A model generated the notes under the pieces. That model saw only the letters and a program-made list of their open reading frames with translations, did not search any database and was not told the DNA's origin. Shown one piece after another: positions 4,042 through 50,681 of a stretch of 64,000 bases of DNA (the first letter of the stretch is position 1; every line of letters begins with the position of its first letter). The stretch is from an uncultured Lachnospiraceae bacterium (GTDB lineage: Bacteria > Bacillota > Clostridia > Lachnospirales > Lachnospiraceae), in the NCBI GenBank assembly GCA_947175035.1, contig CAMWLG010000010.1, forward strand, positions 1 to 64,000. The letters run 5' to 3'. The translations under genes and the position numbers were made by a program.

Positions 4042-4165
4042 GAAAAATAAAAGTTTCTCTTGCAAAGCGTCCTCCTTTATGATATTATATTTTTCGTCGA
4101 GGTCATTAGACAGAATGATCGATTTGTACTATTCCGTATTCTTGACTGGGCTAAGGCGAAGACAT

Positions 4166-4237
4166 GGCTCCATGGTCAAGCGGTTAAGACATCGCCCTTT
4201 CACGGCGGTAACACGGGTTCGATTCCCGTTGGAGTCA
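4166..4237 (+). tRNA. tRNA-Glu (TTC)
   Basis: Cloverleaf: GGCTCCA/TGGAGTC acceptor, loop CTTTCAC, T-arm ACGGG-TTCGATT-CCCGT; CCA not encoded. Confidence 0.95.
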
Positions 4238-4270
4238 TTTTCCTTTTAGGAAATGCATACAATAAAACAT

Positions 4271-4341
4271 GGCGCCATAGCCAAGTGGTAAGGCAGAGGT
4301 CTGCAACACCTTTATCACCAGTTCAAATCTGGTTGGCGCCT
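4271..4341 (+). tRNA. tRNA-Cys (GCA)
   Basis: Cloverleaf: GGCGCCA/TGGCGCC acceptor, loop CTGCAAC, T-arm ACCAG-TTCAAAT-CTGGT; CCA not encoded. Confidence 0.95.
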
Positions 4342-4348
4342 CTCATGG

Positions 4349-4376: not shown

Positions 4377-4616
4377 TTAACCGTTTTATTCTGGCTTATT
4401 TGTCATTATAATGCCCTTTGCATTGGGTTACAAATCATTCAAATCCATTCATATTGAATGATTTTTTACCATTATATGATATGAAGAATAAAAGATATTA
4501 TGCATCAGTGCTTTTTAAGTAGCGGGTTCCTTTTTCTCTGTTCTTATGATAAGATAAGTATATCGGCAAATCAAGATTAGGGTTTTCTAATATAATTGAG
4601 AAAAGAGAGGCAAAAA

Positions 4617-5732
4617 ATGGGGAGAACTGCACAACACTGCAAGCAGTGCGGACGAATCATTTATTTTGACGGAATCTGTATTTCCTGTCGCGCTGAAAAT
4701 GAAAGAAAGGAAATATTGGCTTGGTCACAGGAGGAAATAGATGATGCAGTCCGAAAAATATGTGATGAGATAAAAGAAACTGGCGAATTGGATAAAGAAA
4801 GTGATGTTTTCACAAAGCTGGTCAATTACAGGGATATTGACACATCGGAAATCGCCCAAGTAGCTTTTGAAAAGCAGCTTTTCTATCCCTTCGAGATGTA
4901 TAAGGACGCTTCTGACGAGATCATCCGGGCAATGCTTGAAATGCTAAGTCAGGATAATGTGGATACAATGCTTGGCGCCAATCATCTTCTGTCATGTCTT
5001 GCTATTCATGGCGGAGAAGAGGTTTTCCGTTCTTTTATGGAATTTGAAAAGAATCCTCGAAAGTGGCGGGAAAAGGTGTATGTCAACCCATCCGTCTATG
5101 CCACAAATGGCGGCTGGTCATACGACAGTAGCGGCAATGCCTTAAAAACGATTTTTGACAAATGCTATCCTATGGTAAAGGGAACTCCGAATGAGAAAGA
5201 ACATAGTCCTGTAAAAATCGGAGTCAGGACAAGGGAAAAATGCTCTCATTGTGGCTGTACAATGGTAAATCTTATGGAGATTGACGGTAGGGATTCCCGG
5301 TTACAGTTCCTTGGAATCGATGGCGTAATAAAGGCGAAGTGCTGTCCCAATTGTATCATGTGGTCAGACGATCATTTTTGTCGGTATACTGTAAACGGCG
5401 AGAGCGAGATTATTTATGAGAAGGAACCTTTTAACACGGAAAATTATATGAAGGATGAAGGGATCGAGGAAATGGCTTCCAATTCCTACATTTTAGGGGA
5501 GACTCCTGTTCCGCTTAGATATGCGGCGGACTGGGAAGGCGGTTCCTCTGTCGGCGGCTTTGCATTCTGGATTCAGGATTGCGTTATAAAGCATTGTCCC
5601 GACTGCGGAAAAACCATGAAATATCTTGCGCAGATTCAGTGGGATACGGTGTTGGACGGCATGGAAGGGAATGCTTATATTGAAATTTGTGAGGATTGTA
5701 ATGTGATTGCTGTGTTGCACCAGCAGACATAA
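4617..5732 (+). CDS. Zinc-ribbon-containing hypothetical protein
   Basis: ATG 4617 behind AGAGAGG; three CxxC-type clusters: CKQCGRIIYFDGICISC, CSHCGCTM...CCPNC, CPDCGKTM...CEDC. Confidence 0.65.
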   Translation: MGRTAQHCKQCGRIIYFDGICISCRAENERKEILAWSQEEIDDAVRKICDEIKETGELDKESDVFTKLVNYRDIDTSEIAQVAFEKQLFYPFEMYKDASDEIIRAMLEMLSQDNVDTMLGANHLLSCLAIHGGEEVFRSFMEFEKNPRKWREKVYVNPSVYATNGGWSYDSSGNALKTIFDKCYPMVKGTPNEKEHSPVKIGVRTREKCSHCGCTMVNLMEIDGRDSRLQFLGIDGVIKAKCCPNCIMWSDDHFCRYTVNGESEIIYEKEPFNTENYMKDEGIEEMASNSYILGETPVPLRYAADWEGGSSVGGFAFWIQDCVIKHCPDCGKTMKYLAQIQWDTVLDGMEGNAYIEICEDCNVIAVLHQQT

Positions 5733-5826
5733 GAGACAAGCTATCTATATATTTTGGACTTCACATTTGTCCTGTTGTATGTTAAAGTAATAACAAAGAA
5801 ATGTTTTTGAGTCCGCTAAAGCGGAC

Positions 5827-7593
5827 ATGGGGTATAAAAAGATGACGCATAAGGAGAAAGCGGATCAGCTTTTAAAACAGCAATATCACTGTTCTCAGGC
5901 ATTGTTTGGAGCCTTTGCAGAAGAATTTGGACTGGATTTGAAGACGGCGTTTAAGATCAGCACATGTTTTGGCGGCGGAATGCGTCAGGGGGGAACCTGC
6001 GGCTGCATTACGGCGGCAATGCTGGTGCTGGGGATGGCGTTGGGATTTTATGACGCGCAGGATCGGGAACAGGAGACATACGGCAATAAGAAGACAGACG
6101 AGTTCATACGGCGGTTTACGGAGCAGATGGACGGTGTGATCTATTGCCGGGATATCTTGGGTAAAGATATATCCAAACCCGAGGATATGGCAGTGATTCG
6201 GCAGGAGAAGCTGATTTTACAAAAATGTCCCAGGGCAATTAACATCAGTATTGATATTCTGGAAGATATGCTGGCAGAGCATCTTCAGAATATGAAGGAG
6301 AACAATTTAAACCCTGAGGATATTCCTCATGGCGATGAGATGCGTGCTGTGCTGAAGAGTATGAGCAAACAGAAGCGTTTTAGGAGGAATGTCAACAATC
6401 TGCTGGTGTCCTCCTCAAAACATATCGGGTTTATTCAGTTTGATATCCGCAAATTCAAGATAGTCAACGACTTATATGGTGAGAAGTTCGGTGATGAGAT
6501 TCTGGATTTTATCATTGAGCAGTTGAAAGAGATCTGTCGGGATAATCAATATTTCCTGAATCTGCGCAGCGATGTGTTTATCGTGGTGACAGAGTATGAC
6601 CGGGAAGAGGAATTGGTGGAGTTTATTCATCAGTTGGATGCCAGAATTGATTGTTATAAGGATGTAAAGCTTCAGTTGGTCTATGGTGTGTATATGGCCG
6701 AGGACAGGTCGATGGAGCTCCGCCAGATGGAGGATCGTGCGACCATGGCGAGGAAGGCGGCCAAGAAGAATATTCTGAACAATATCTCGTTTTATAAGGA
6801 ACAGTACAAAGAAACTCTGTACAATAGGAAATTCATTGAGGAGAATATGCAGGCGGCCATTACGGAGAGACAGTTTATGATGTATCTCCAGCCCAAATAC
6901 AGTATCCTCAAAAATGAAATCATAGGGGCGGAAGCGTTGGTTCGATGGCGTCATCCGGAGAGGGGAATGATTTATCCCAATCAGTTCATTCCGATTATCG
7001 AAGAAAACGGCTTTGTCAAAAAGGTGGACTATTATATATGGGCGGAGGCATGCCGTTTTATCAAAAAATGTGAGGATGCGGGTATCACCTCCTGTCCTGT
7101 TTCGGTCAATGTGTCCAGAATTCATCTGCGGGACGATGAATGTATACAGGTGCTCTCTCAACTGATCAAGGAAAGCGGTATTCACAAGTCGCTGCTGGAG
7201 CTGGAGATCACGGAGACGGTGGATGACCAACAGGTGAGCCTGAAAGCATTGCAGTTGAAAGAGGAAGGTTTTACCCTGCTGATGGATGATTTCGGAAGCG
7301 GTTATTCCTCGCTGAACATTCTCTTAGAGACGCCTTTTGACGTGATCAAGCTGGACAAGAAGTTCATGGAGAACATGATGGTATCGGGCAAGGGAAGGAT
7401 GATACTGGAGCAGGTGGTCTCCATGGCGAACAAGCTGGATCTTGGACTTTTGGCGGAGGGTGTGGAGACCAGAGAGCAGATCGATCTGCTGCAGAGTATC
7501 GGCTGTGATCAGGTACAGGGATACTATTATGCGAAGCCGATGCCGGAGGAAGAGTTTTTTGCGCTGTTGGAAAAACAGCATGCCGGAAAATAG
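5827..7593 (+). CDS. C_GCAxxG_C_C-type redox domain fused to degenerate GGDEF and intact EAL domain
   Basis: N-term YHCSQALFGAFAEEFG...GGTCGCITAAMLVLG...CRDILG...KCPRAI; GGDEF signature replaced by LRSDVF; EAL motifs EALVRW, NVS, ELEITE, DDFGSGYSSL, AEGVE, QGYYYAKP. Confidence 0.85.
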   Translation: MGYKKMTHKEKADQLLKQQYHCSQALFGAFAEEFGLDLKTAFKISTCFGGGMRQGGTCGCITAAMLVLGMALGFYDAQDREQETYGNKKTDEFIRRFTEQMDGVIYCRDILGKDISKPEDMAVIRQEKLILQKCPRAINISIDILEDMLAEHLQNMKENNLNPEDIPHGDEMRAVLKSMSKQKRFRRNVNNLLVSSSKHIGFIQFDIRKFKIVNDLYGEKFGDEILDFIIEQLKEICRDNQYFLNLRSDVFIVVTEYDREEELVEFIHQLDARIDCYKDVKLQLVYGVYMAEDRSMELRQMEDRATMARKAAKKNILNNISFYKEQYKETLYNRKFIEENMQAAITERQFMMYLQPKYSILKNEIIGAEALVRWRHPERGMIYPNQFIPIIEENGFVKKVDYYIWAEACRFIKKCEDAGITSCPVSVNVSRIHLRDDECIQVLSQLIKESGIHKSLLELEITETVDDQQVSLKALQLKEEGFTLLMDDFGSGYSSLNILLETPFDVIKLDKKFMENMMVSGKGRMILEQVVSMANKLDLGLLAEGVETREQIDLLQSIGCDQVQGYYYAKPMPEEEFFALLEKQHAGK

Positions 7594-14189: not shown

Positions 14190-14280
14190 GACAAAATTTG
14201 ACACAACATTTTCCAATATGACAAATTAAGTGGTAGCATCTCGACGTAACATCTGTTATAATGTACGTGGAGGATTACAC

Positions 14281-16332
14281 ATGAAGAAACGAATTCGCCT
14301 GAAAGGCCGAATCAAAACTTATATACAATTTAGTATCTATCTGGGCGTTTTACTCTGCGTTGTGGACGCGGCGATCTGCATGATTGATTATCGCGCAGGT
14401 CTGCTGTTAGGGGTCTTTACTGTTTTTTATTTTGTGGTGACTTTGGCGATGTATTTTTATAACAAGCCGGTCATCATGAACGAGCTGATCAGCTTTGCTA
14501 CGGAGTATGGGCAGATTCAGCGAAAGCTTCTGCGGGATATGGAGCTGCCGTATGCGCTCTTGGACGACTCCGGCAAGGTGATTTGGACGAACATTGCCTT
14601 TGAGAACGTGGTGCATCAGCCAAAGGGTTACAACAAATCCATTACGGGTCTATTTCCCACCATCACGAAGGACAGGCTACCTGATGAGTCCGAAGTGGAC
14701 GAGGCACAGTACGAGTTAGAGTATGACGGCTGTGAGTATGTGGTGAAGCTGAAAAAGATTCCCCTGAAGGAAATGGCAGAGCACAGTGATATGATTGACG
14801 CTGAGGGGTATAATGGCTATTTGATTGCCATGTATCTCTTTGACGAGACCGCTTTGCATATTGCGTTGAAAGAAGTGGATGACCAGAGTCTGGCAGTGGG
14901 TATGATCTATCTGGACAATTACGAGGAGGCTTTGGAGAGCGTGGAGGAAGTGAGACGTTCCCTTTTGATCGCGTTGATTGACAGAAAGGTCAACAAGTAT
15001 ATTTCCGCACTGGACGGGATCAGCAAGAAGCTGGAGAAGGACAAGTATCTCGTGATATTGCGCAAAAAGACCATCGCCCAGCTGCAGGAGAATCGTTTTG
15101 ATCTGCTGGAGGAAGTCAAGACAGTCAATATCGGGAACGAGATGGCGGTCACCATGAGTATTGGTGTGGGATTGGACGGGCTTACATACGCGCAGAATTA
15201 TGAGTTTGCCAGAAACGCCATAGATTTGGCATTGGGACGGGGCGGTGATCAGGCGGTGATCAAGACGCCGGAGAGCATCACCTACTATGGTGGCAAGAGC
15301 CAGCAGGTGGAGAAGAATACCCGCGTGAAGGCCCGTGTGAAGGCACATGCCTTGCGAGAGATCATCACCAGCAAGGACAAGGTATTGGTCATGGGACACC
15401 GGATGCCGGACGTGGACAGCTTTGGGTCGGCAGTGGGAATTTATCGGGTTGCCACTACGCTTGGCAGGAAGAGCCATATTGTGCTGGATGAGGCTACCAC
15501 GGCGATACAGCCTTTGGTAGATTTATTTAAAAATAATCCTGAATATGATGATGACATGATCATCAGTGGACAGGAAGCGATTGATATGGCTGGGAATAAC
15601 GCCGTCCTGGTGGTGGTGGATGTCAACAAGCCGTCCATTACCGAATGTCCGGAGCTGTTGCGTTATTGTAAATCCATTGTGGTGCTGGATCACCACAGAC
15701 AGGGTACAGAGACAATTGAGAACGCCACGCTTTCCTATGTGGAGCCGTATGCGTCCTCAGCCTGTGAGATGGTTTCCGAGATTTTGCAATACACTTATGA
15801 TAATATCAAGATTCGCCCTGAGGAGGCGGACTGTATGTACTCGGGTATCGTGGTGGATACCAATAATTTTGTGACCAAGACAGGTGTGCGTACCTTTGAG
15901 GCCGCTGCGTTCCTGCGAAGGAGTGGCGCGGATGTGACCAGAGTGCGGAAAATGTTCCGTGAGGACGCCCAGGAGTACAAGGCAAGGGCGGACGCTGTGG
16001 GCCAGGCGGAGATTTACAGACAGTATTTTGCCATTTCCATTTGTATGGCAGAGGATCTGCCGAGTCCTACGGTAATCGGCGCGCAGGCAGCCAACGAGCT
16101 CTTGAATATCAAGGGAATCAAAGCCAGCTTCGTGTTGACGGATTATCAGGGAAAAATCTATGTCAGTGCCCGTTCCATAGACGAGGTAAATGTGCAGATT
16201 GTCATGGAGCGCATGGGCGGGGGAGGCCATATGAATGTGGCTGCCTGCCAGATGGAAGGCGTGGGAATTGCGGAGGCTATTGGGGCATTGAAGCACACCA
16301 TAGATGATATGTTGGACAAGGGTGAGATTTAG
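14281..16332 (+). CDS. gdpP: GdpP/YybT-type cyclic-di-AMP phosphodiesterase (TM, PAS, degenerate GGDEF, DHH-DHHA1)
   Basis: VMGHRMPDVDSFGSAVG, VVDVNKPS, VLDHHRQG, GGGGHMNVAACQ; located before rplI-dnaB as in many Firmicutes. Confidence 0.9.
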   Translation: MKKRIRLKGRIKTYIQFSIYLGVLLCVVDAAICMIDYRAGLLLGVFTVFYFVVTLAMYFYNKPVIMNELISFATEYGQIQRKLLRDMELPYALLDDSGKVIWTNIAFENVVHQPKGYNKSITGLFPTITKDRLPDESEVDEAQYELEYDGCEYVVKLKKIPLKEMAEHSDMIDAEGYNGYLIAMYLFDETALHIALKEVDDQSLAVGMIYLDNYEEALESVEEVRRSLLIALIDRKVNKYISALDGISKKLEKDKYLVILRKKTIAQLQENRFDLLEEVKTVNIGNEMAVTMSIGVGLDGLTYAQNYEFARNAIDLALGRGGDQAVIKTPESITYYGGKSQQVEKNTRVKARVKAHALREIITSKDKVLVMGHRMPDVDSFGSAVGIYRVATTLGRKSHIVLDEATTAIQPLVDLFKNNPEYDDDMIISGQEAIDMAGNNAVLVVVDVNKPSITECPELLRYCKSIVVLDHHRQGTETIENATLSYVEPYASSACEMVSEILQYTYDNIKIRPEEADCMYSGIVVDTNNFVTKTGVRTFEAAAFLRRSGADVTRVRKMFREDAQEYKARADAVGQAEIYRQYFAISICMAEDLPSPTVIGAQAANELLNIKGIKASFVLTDYQGKIYVSARSIDEVNVQIVMERMGGGGHMNVAACQMEGVGIAEAIGALKHTIDDMLDKGEI

Positions 16333-48881: not shown

Positions 48882-50681
48882 GTGAATATTACAGGGTATT
48901 TTTCGGAGGAAGATAGCAATCCCACGATTTATCGGGGCAAAATGACATTGCGGAGCAATTATACGATTGTGGATGCGGATGAGTCTTGTTATCAATATGT
49001 GGGAAAATATTCCGCCCTGCCCCTGACAGGGCTGGCGCACCCGGAGGACACGGACGCTGTCAGGGATGCGCTTGAACGGCTGAAAGAAGGGACACAGCGA
49101 GTGATTTTCAGGATGATGTGTGGTAATGGAAGTTACCGCTATATGTATGCGATGCTGTCCCTGAATGGCAGGGTAGTGGACGGCGAAGCATACATAGATG
49201 TGGAACTTATGGATATCATGCGCGTTTACTATAAATTTGATTCGGATCATTCTAAAATCGGAAAGTACAGAAAACTGATGTCTCTGAGCGATAAGATGTA
49301 TTTTGAATACAGATATGAAGAGAAGACCGTCACGATTTTTGAATATATCAATGACAGAGGGAATTTGCGGTTTAGCGACACCATGGAACATTTTCAGGAG
49401 AGGGTTCTGGAGAGCGGGGAGTTTAACGACAAGCAGAAGGCGGAGTTTGAGACATTATTGGATTGCCTGAAGCATCATGTCGAAAAGATGGATGTCGATA
49501 TGGATGGCAGGATCTTTGGCTTTGACGGCGGCTATCTGAATCTGAAGGGCGGAATTGCCTATGAGGATCAGTCCAAGAAGATGATGGTGGCGGTGGTCAC
49601 GACCCTGGGCAAGGTGGACTTGGAGGAGAAGTATTACATGACCCGCCATGCTTTCGACGGGGCAACCGGCGTATATAATAAGCGCGCAATCAATGAGTTG
49701 GCGGCGGATCTCATGGTGGGGAGCGGAGACAAGACAATCTTCCTGTGCGTCACTGATATTGATGATTTCAAGAATATTAATGATACCTTCGGCCATTTGG
49801 TGGGCGACCAGGTGATTGCCAAAGTGGCGGCAGTGATCAAGGACGTTCTCGCCGCCAGGGGATTCGTGGGAAGGTTTGGCGGGGATGAGTTCCTGATCGT
49901 CACAGATAAGGTCAAAACGGAGGACGAGCTGATCATGATGCTCAAGACCATCCGAAAACATATCAGTTGGTCGTGTGCGGAATTGCTTGGTAATGTGATG
50001 GATGTGACGACTTCCATAGGGATCGCGCGTTATCCGAAGGATGCCTCGAATTACGGGGATCTGTTCAAGATTGCAGATAAATGTCTGTATCTTGCCAAGG
50101 CAAAGGGGAAGAACCGTTTTATCTTATATAACGAGGAATTGCACAAGGATTATAATATGGAGACCACCTCGGGCAAAACATCTACAGGGAAAAGCCTGGA
50201 TATTTACTCTAGATCCTGTCGGGCGGTTGTGGATATTTTGGGCAACGAGGGGCAGGATAGCCGGGAGAGCTTTGATGAAAGCGTCAAGGAGATGTTGTCA
50301 AGCTATGATATTGACCGGATGGGGATTTTTACAGGGGAAAAATATGAGAGAGTATATGAAGCCGGGAATTGTGAAGGCTTTGTGGAGGAACTGACTTTTC
50401 TGGACGACCCCAAGCTGGTGGAGGAATTTGATGAAAATGGCATTTATGCCAGAAATGGGATTCTCTCTCTAAGGGAATCGTTCCCTGAACTCTACGAACA
50501 GCTGGAAAAACAGGAAACAAAGGGATTCCTGGTCGTAAAGGTGGAGCTTTCGGACAAGCGTATAGTTGTCGTGGTGTATGATGTGCACGATCATCCGAGA
50601 AAGTGGTCAAGTAATGATAAGGGACTGCTCTATATTGCAGCGCAGGTGTTGGTGAGACGTTATTGCGCATTGGAAAAGTGA
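48882..50681 (+). CDS. Diguanylate cyclase (PAS-like sensor + intact GGDEF), GTG start
   Basis: LCVTDIDDFKNINDTFGHLVGDQVI...FVGRFGGDEFLIV. Confidence 0.88.
   Translation: MNITGYFSEEDSNPTIYRGKMTLRSNYTIVDADESCYQYVGKYSALPLTGLAHPEDTDAVRDALERLKEGTQRVIFRMMCGNGSYRYMYAMLSLNGRVVDGEAYIDVELMDIMRVYYKFDSDHSKIGKYRKLMSLSDKMYFEYRYEEKTVTIFEYINDRGNLRFSDTMEHFQERVLESGEFNDKQKAEFETLLDCLKHHVEKMDVDMDGRIFGFDGGYLNLKGGIAYEDQSKKMMVAVVTTLGKVDLEEKYYMTRHAFDGATGVYNKRAINELAADLMVGSGDKTIFLCVTDIDDFKNINDTFGHLVGDQVIAKVAAVIKDVLAARGFVGRFGGDEFLIVTDKVKTEDELIMMLKTIRKHISWSCAELLGNVMDVTTSIGIARYPKDASNYGDLFKIADKCLYLAKAKGKNRFILYNEELHKDYNMETTSGKTSTGKSLDIYSRSCRAVVDILGNEGQDSRESFDESVKEMLSSYDIDRMGIFTGEKYERVYEAGNCEGFVEELTFLDDPKLVEEFDENGIYARNGILSLRESFPELYEQLEKQETKGFLVVKVELSDKRIVVVVYDVHDHPRKWSSNDKGLLYIAAQVLVRRYCALEK

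Follow-up and report, generated by a model that had tools for sequence, protein, structure and literature searches.

A C_GCAxxG_C_C cysteine domain as candidate input of a GGDEF-EAL protein in gut Lachnospiraceae

Introduction

GGDEF-EAL and related c-di-GMP enzymes with redox inputs are already known, including DosP, PdeC and Bhr-HD-GYP, and redox-gated c-di-GMP enzymes thus have precedents (PMC8846402, PMC9388753). The protein described here shares with the oxygen-sensing DosP of Escherichia coli (PdeO) the order of an N-terminal input, a GGDEF and an EAL domain, and DosP is among its best structural and HMM matches. However, the input of DosP is a heme-PAS domain, whereas the one proposed here is a cysteine-rich helical domain, and no PAS domain was detected in the protein. 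It also misses the NCBIfam equivalog cut-offs of the DosP model (224 versus 857 bits) and of GepA (232 versus 1200 bits). The gating that we propose resembles the thiol-dependent control of the CSS-motif EAL protein PdeC of E. coli (PMC8846402), but PdeC senses in the periplasm through a two-cysteine loop between membrane helices, whereas the present protein carries a soluble domain with six cysteines. It may likewise be compared with Bhr-HD-GYP and VcBhr-DGC, in which a helical metal (hemerythrin) domain gates c-di-GMP turnover by redox state; these systems use a di-iron His/Glu/Asp site and an HD-GYP or GGDEF output, with no EAL example according to the review that treats them (PMC9388753). 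Finally, our protein can be likened to FimX of Pseudomonas aeruginosa, where a degenerate GGDEF beside an EAL domain serves as transmitter or GTP site (PMC8846402); FimX, however, has the signature GDSIF and no cysteine input domain, whereas our protein combines LRSDVF with such a domain.

The C_GCAxxG_C_C family (PF09719, TIGR01909) is a common orphan family in anaerobes, for which we found no solved structure, no described activity and no biochemistry in the literature searched, which lay largely outside subscription journals. The Pfam label 'putative redox-active' is a prediction. Selenoprotein forms of the family have been catalogued (PMC9312934, PMC13188914), in agreement with redox-active cysteines, and in Bacteroides thetaiotaomicron a C-GCAxxG-C-C gene and an Nramp metal transporter gene are both in the list of an iron-dependent stimulon (PMC10434189). 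Within the same literature, the family appears to be unreported as an input domain of c-di-GMP enzymes. A natural fusion to an easily assayed enzyme makes sensing by PF09719 directly testable and, if the reading proposed below is true, c-di-GMP signalling in gut Lachnospiraceae would gain a new kind of input. The c-di-GMP networks of these bacteria seem to be large and have received little study. Here, we analyse such a fusion in a window of 64,000 nucleotides (positions 1 to 64,000 of contig CAMWLG010000010.1, assembly GCA_947175035.1) from an uncultured Lachnospiraceae bacterium.

Results

Gene and domain architecture

An earlier note had placed a gene for these three domains at 5827-7593. 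The open frame of 588 codons on the forward strand and the three domains were confirmed, but the start had to be moved: ATG 5842 (MTHKEK...) is most likely the true one, since the orthologue alignment begins there and a G-rich Shine-Dalgarno-like motif lies a few bases 5' of this ATG in 78/78 upstream regions, versus 6/78 in a control stretch. Residue numbers below follow the 588-aa reading; five must be subtracted for the revised start. The perfect inverted repeat spanning 5811-5826 was rejected as a candidate operator, given that it is not conserved in the upstream regions of the orthologues.

Table 1. Features of the fusion gene and its upstream region (window coordinates).
Feature	Position	Strand	Remarks
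Promoter-like element CTTCACAT-N13-TGTTAAAGT	5759..5788	+	Conserved in orthologue upstream regions
GGGG, putative Shine-Dalgarno for start 5842	5829..5832	+	G-rich Shine-Dalgarno-like motif here in orthologues
Fusion gene, revised (most likely) start	5842..7593	+	583 aa; orthologues align from this Met; three Pfam domains
C_GCAxxG_C_C domain (PF09719), residues 20-148	5884..6270	+	Pfam 86.2 bits, cut-off 27
Cys codons of C22, C47, C58, C60, C107, C134	5890, 5965, 5998, 6004, 6145, 6226	+	In PF09719 domain
Variable linker, 33-35 residues	6271..6372	+	Least conserved region; length near-constant
Degenerate GGDEF, residues 183-315, signature LRSDVF	6373..6771	+	Pfam 53.7 bits
EAL domain, residues 339-571	6841..7539	+	Pfam 212.7 bits

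The Pfam matches of all three domains exceed the curated cut-offs (Table 1). The assignment of the N-terminal part to the C_GCAxxG_C_C family, proposed from its motifs, was borne out by the PF09719 score of 86.2 bits and by the presence of HCSQA, GGTCG, C107 and KCP; the TIGR01909 model is matched as well (63.9 bits versus a cut-off of 47.4). In a Pfam scan of 67 orthologues, PF09719, GGDEF and EAL were all present in every one, indicating that the fusion is neither a chance event nor an assembly joint. Mean column entropy in the orthologue alignment is 0.64 for the cysteine domain, 0.59 for the EAL domain, 0.92 for the GGDEF domain and 1.61 for the linker, which suggests that the N-terminal domain is under about the same constraint as the EAL domain. 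In the structural model, the linker starts disordered (pLDDT ~40) and then forms a helix that runs into the GGDEF domain.

The cysteine-rich domain

The cysteines C22, C47, C58, C60, C107 and C134 are invariant in 81 sequences, unread X residues aside, and four of them (C22, C58, C107 and C134) are also invariant in 58 diverse PF09719 members including the query. C47 is found in 18 of 69 other members of the family and C60 in none of these 69, being restricted to the fusion. Thus, the cysteine-rich family motif read in the earlier note holds for the four family cysteines, while the fusion conserves six, two more than the family. The fusion domain has the four invariant cysteines, the CG motif and its length in common with PF09719 and TIGR01909 proteins; these usually stand alone, whereas the fusion clade adds C60 (and C47) and a GGDEF-EAL output.

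The AlphaFold2 model of the N-terminal domain is all-helical with a pLDDT of 91.9, and places the core cysteines at or beside the N-terminal ends of helices. Helix N-termini favour thiolates and metal-bound thiolates. A Foldseek search with this confident model returned no solved fold like it (best E 1.8), and the sequence of the N-terminal domain, searched by itself, had no match in the PDB. Matches in the PDB obtained with the profiles of the fusion clade and of the whole family were rejected as weak or repeat-driven; a suspected link to split-Soret cytochrome c was also discarded, as no search supported it.

Elsewhere, PF09719 is fused to GNAT, MarR-GNAT, NUDIX, Nitro_FeMo-Co, a PLP-dependent cysteine-synthase-like enzyme, an AadA-type nucleotidyltransferase and DUF402, the loci with unrelated enzymes being L133, L149, L153, L154, L156, L157, L159 and L190. 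Two of these partners, Nitro_FeMo-Co at L159 and the PLP-dependent enzyme at L190, handle metal cofactors or sulfur. This variety bears on what the orphan domain does. Since the domain is joined to GNAT, NUDIX, Nitro_FeMo-Co, PLP-dependent and AadA-type enzymes alike, it may be a general accessory domain for metal or sulfur handling and not a sensor. Around 18 members that stand alone or have other fusion partners, the neighbouring genes are of mixed kinds, GNAT acetyltransferases being the commonest, and therefore reveal no function.

The EAL and GGDEF domains

The eight metal-binding and catalytic residues of the EAL domain (E369, N428, E460, D487, D488, K508, E544 and Q564) are invariant across the 81 sequences, X aside, as is the loop DDFGSGYS, unread residues aside. 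The alignment with PaMorA, a solved phosphodiesterase, shows identical residues at all eight positions, so the claim of an EAL domain with all its catalytic motifs stands. Foldseek matches the EAL fold to phosphodiesterase domains (TM ~0.9 of the target); among solved structures, the closest to the full-length model are two GGDEF-EAL proteins, PA0575 and PaMorA, together with the oxygen sensor DosP. This full-length model does match GGDEF-EAL structures, although its pTM of 0.50 makes the placement of the domains unreliable. A complete set of EAL residues leads one to expect that c-di-GMP is hydrolysed to pGpG by a two-metal mechanism. The EAL domain is thus well supported as catalytically competent, as predicted from sequence, and the fusion protein would hydrolyse c-di-GMP.

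As the earlier note had also stated, the GGDEF signature is lost: it reads LRSDVF in the query and in 74 of the 81 sequences, and the full GG[D/E]EF motif is absent from all 81, the nearest form being LGGDVF in a single sequence. No diguanylate cyclase activity is therefore expected. Given that D206, K211, N214 and D215 are invariant, the domain is possibly still a nucleotide (GTP) site. A degenerate GGDEF with an intact EAL is found in most of ~40 Lachnospiraceae relatives compared, whose N-terminal parts differ, and is an ordinary combination in this bacterial family. The closest relative outside the clade (L006) is 48% identical; its N-terminus differs and gives no Pfam match above the cut-off. 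Moreover, the EAL cysteines C415, C423 and C439 (7051-7143) are each present in at least 76 of the 81 sequences, and other EAL proteins hardly ever have a cysteine at these positions, so that a further thiol site close to the active-site strand is possible.

Distribution and origin of the fusion

The architecture was searched across genomes in the GTDB collection, where 123 relatives were recovered and the best 80 kept. These 80 match over essentially the whole length with 72-93% identity, and their source genomes are gut MAGs and isolates labelled as Lachnospiraceae or in a similar way; the cultured carriers include strain 10-1 (L105). With at least 80 full-length orthologues, the fusion is no singleton. 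One orthologue (L086) has an interrupted frame. In the genus of the host, at least 18 of 138 genomes, the host's own included, encode PF09719 within an ORF of 583-637 aa. Among 397 genomes drawn evenly from the bacterial family, 10 carry the fusion, in nine genera besides the host's, and 256 carry a PF09719 relative. The domain usually stands alone. Outside the host genome, no fusion was found among 399 genomes drawn across the phylum; relatives of the N-terminal domain, in one form or another, occur in 163 of them. A long frame at G930 (L189) that resembled another fusion was rejected as an antisense artefact.

When 82 PF09719 domains were placed on a tree, the 22 from the fusion grouped together as a single clade with a support of 99.9 and a long stem. 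The domain tree fits a fusion that arose once, then spread and was in part lost within the bacterial family. The host genome also encodes a stand-alone PF09719 protein with four cysteines (L001, G000:C1:66328-66711), located beside enolase and belonging to a different branch of the family.

Upstream element and genomic context

The promoter-like element upstream of the gene has the consensus CTTCACAA-N13-TGnTA[AG]AAT, from which the copy in the window departs twice. Of 80 orthologue upstream regions, 46 contain it with a score above the highest shuffled-sequence score. A search of 1.22 Mb of orthologue loci for its strict form, TTCACA-N14-TGTTARA, gave 24 matches, each of them upstream of the fusion gene; the host's own genome has two. 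The element reads as an extended -10 promoter, apparently with a -35 region kept as TTCACA in place of TTGACA, and a dedicated activator site at this conserved -35 region is possible. We rejected its use as a regulon marker, since exact matches elsewhere in the bacterial family precede unrelated genes, and also the idea of Rex-type half sites, as the expected palindrome order is absent.

No neighbouring gene is conserved at the 80 fusion loci; the commonest neighbouring gene cluster occurs at 21 of 81 loci, at scattered places. As no neighbour is conserved and the gene has its own promoter-like element, it seems to be a self-contained unit. The host genome contains 13 EAL and 28 GGDEF matches, a c-di-GMP-I riboswitch and flagellins, making c-di-GMP signalling and motility plausible targets.

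Discussion

We lean slightly towards a soluble one-component phosphodiesterase whose hydrolysis of c-di-GMP would be gated by an N-terminal thiol or metal centre, perhaps Fe-S. The earlier note had suggested a phosphodiesterase gated by thiol or metal redox state, and this interpretation is partly supported. The helical C_GCAxxG_C_C domain would be the input, and its six invariant cysteines would form a metal or Fe-S centre or a thiol/disulfide switch, whose state would be altered by oxygen, an oxidant, or the supply of metal or sulfide. This change would rearrange the linker helix and the GGDEF-EAL dimer, and the hydrolysis of c-di-GMP to pGpG would be switched on or off, with the degenerate GGDEF acting as a transmitter that makes no c-di-GMP and possibly keeps a GTP site. 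The input role is supported indirectly, because the cysteine domain fills the N-terminal slot held by other sequences in Lachnospiraceae GGDEF-EAL proteins and is conserved much as the EAL domain is. From the cysteines and the position of the domain we infer that the signal may be of a redox or metal nature, and regulation of hydrolysis by this domain would follow the same logic. Six cytoplasmic thiols in an anaerobe would suit an Fe-S centre, another metal centre or a thiol switch. More broadly and more tentatively, with a probability that we place somewhat below even, C_GCAxxG_C_C may represent a class of cytoplasmic redox sensor, of metal-thiolate or Fe-S type, that has its own fold and has so far gone unrecognised; its output could here be read for the first time, as c-di-GMP hydrolysis in gut anaerobes.

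Several other explanations were weighed. A mis-assembly chimera or a pseudogene, in favour of which nothing was found, has next to no probability, given that the same fusion stands at 80 loci from separate assemblies and forms one clade. It is rather unlikely that the protein senses metal or Fe-S supply and not redox state, the occupancy of the cysteine domain, reached only when iron or sulfide is available, setting the phosphodiesterase activity. The fusions to Nitro_FeMo-Co and to the cysteine-synthase-like enzyme, the B. thetaiotaomicron member that shares the list of an iron-dependent stimulon with an Nramp gene (PMC10434189) and a number of cysteines exceeding the needs of one disulfide all speak for such a sensor, but no metal is known for any PF09719 member, and the fusion loci have no conserved metal-related neighbour.

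A slightly lower probability goes to the cysteine domain as an accessory or scaffold (structural zinc, sulfur transfer or partner binding), the EAL activity being set, as in FimX, by GTP on the degenerate GGDEF. The promiscuity of PF09719 towards unrelated enzymes and the four invariant GGDEF residues are consistent with this, as is the GTP-raised phosphodiesterase activity of FimX through its own degenerate GGDEF (PMC8846402); however, of the three domains the GGDEF shows the lowest conservation, the GG of its loop is gone, and the fusion has extra cysteines of its own. The reverse direction, a trigger enzyme in which c-di-GMP on the EAL domain governs redox or thiol chemistry at the N-terminus, is quite improbable: a domain that usually stands alone could have an activity of its own, but a pure receptor would not need the catalytic EAL residues, all of which are kept.

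Some further features of the window may be mentioned. Upstream of the fusion gene, an ORF of 378 aa (4596-5732) has several CxxC pairs of zinc-ribbon-like appearance and no Pfam match, and its adjacency to the fusion is not conserved. Adjoining genes for tRNA-Glu and tRNA-Cys lie at 4165-4342, just upstream of the cysteine-rich ORFs. Judged by eye, the 700-aa ORF at 14230-16332 resembles GdpP, a membrane protein with a DHH/DHHA1 c-di-AMP phosphodiesterase; if it is GdpP-like, two cyclic-dinucleotide phosphodiesterases would lie within 11 kb. Another GGDEF domain is located at 49650-50117 (122.5 bits) in a frame of 607 aa.
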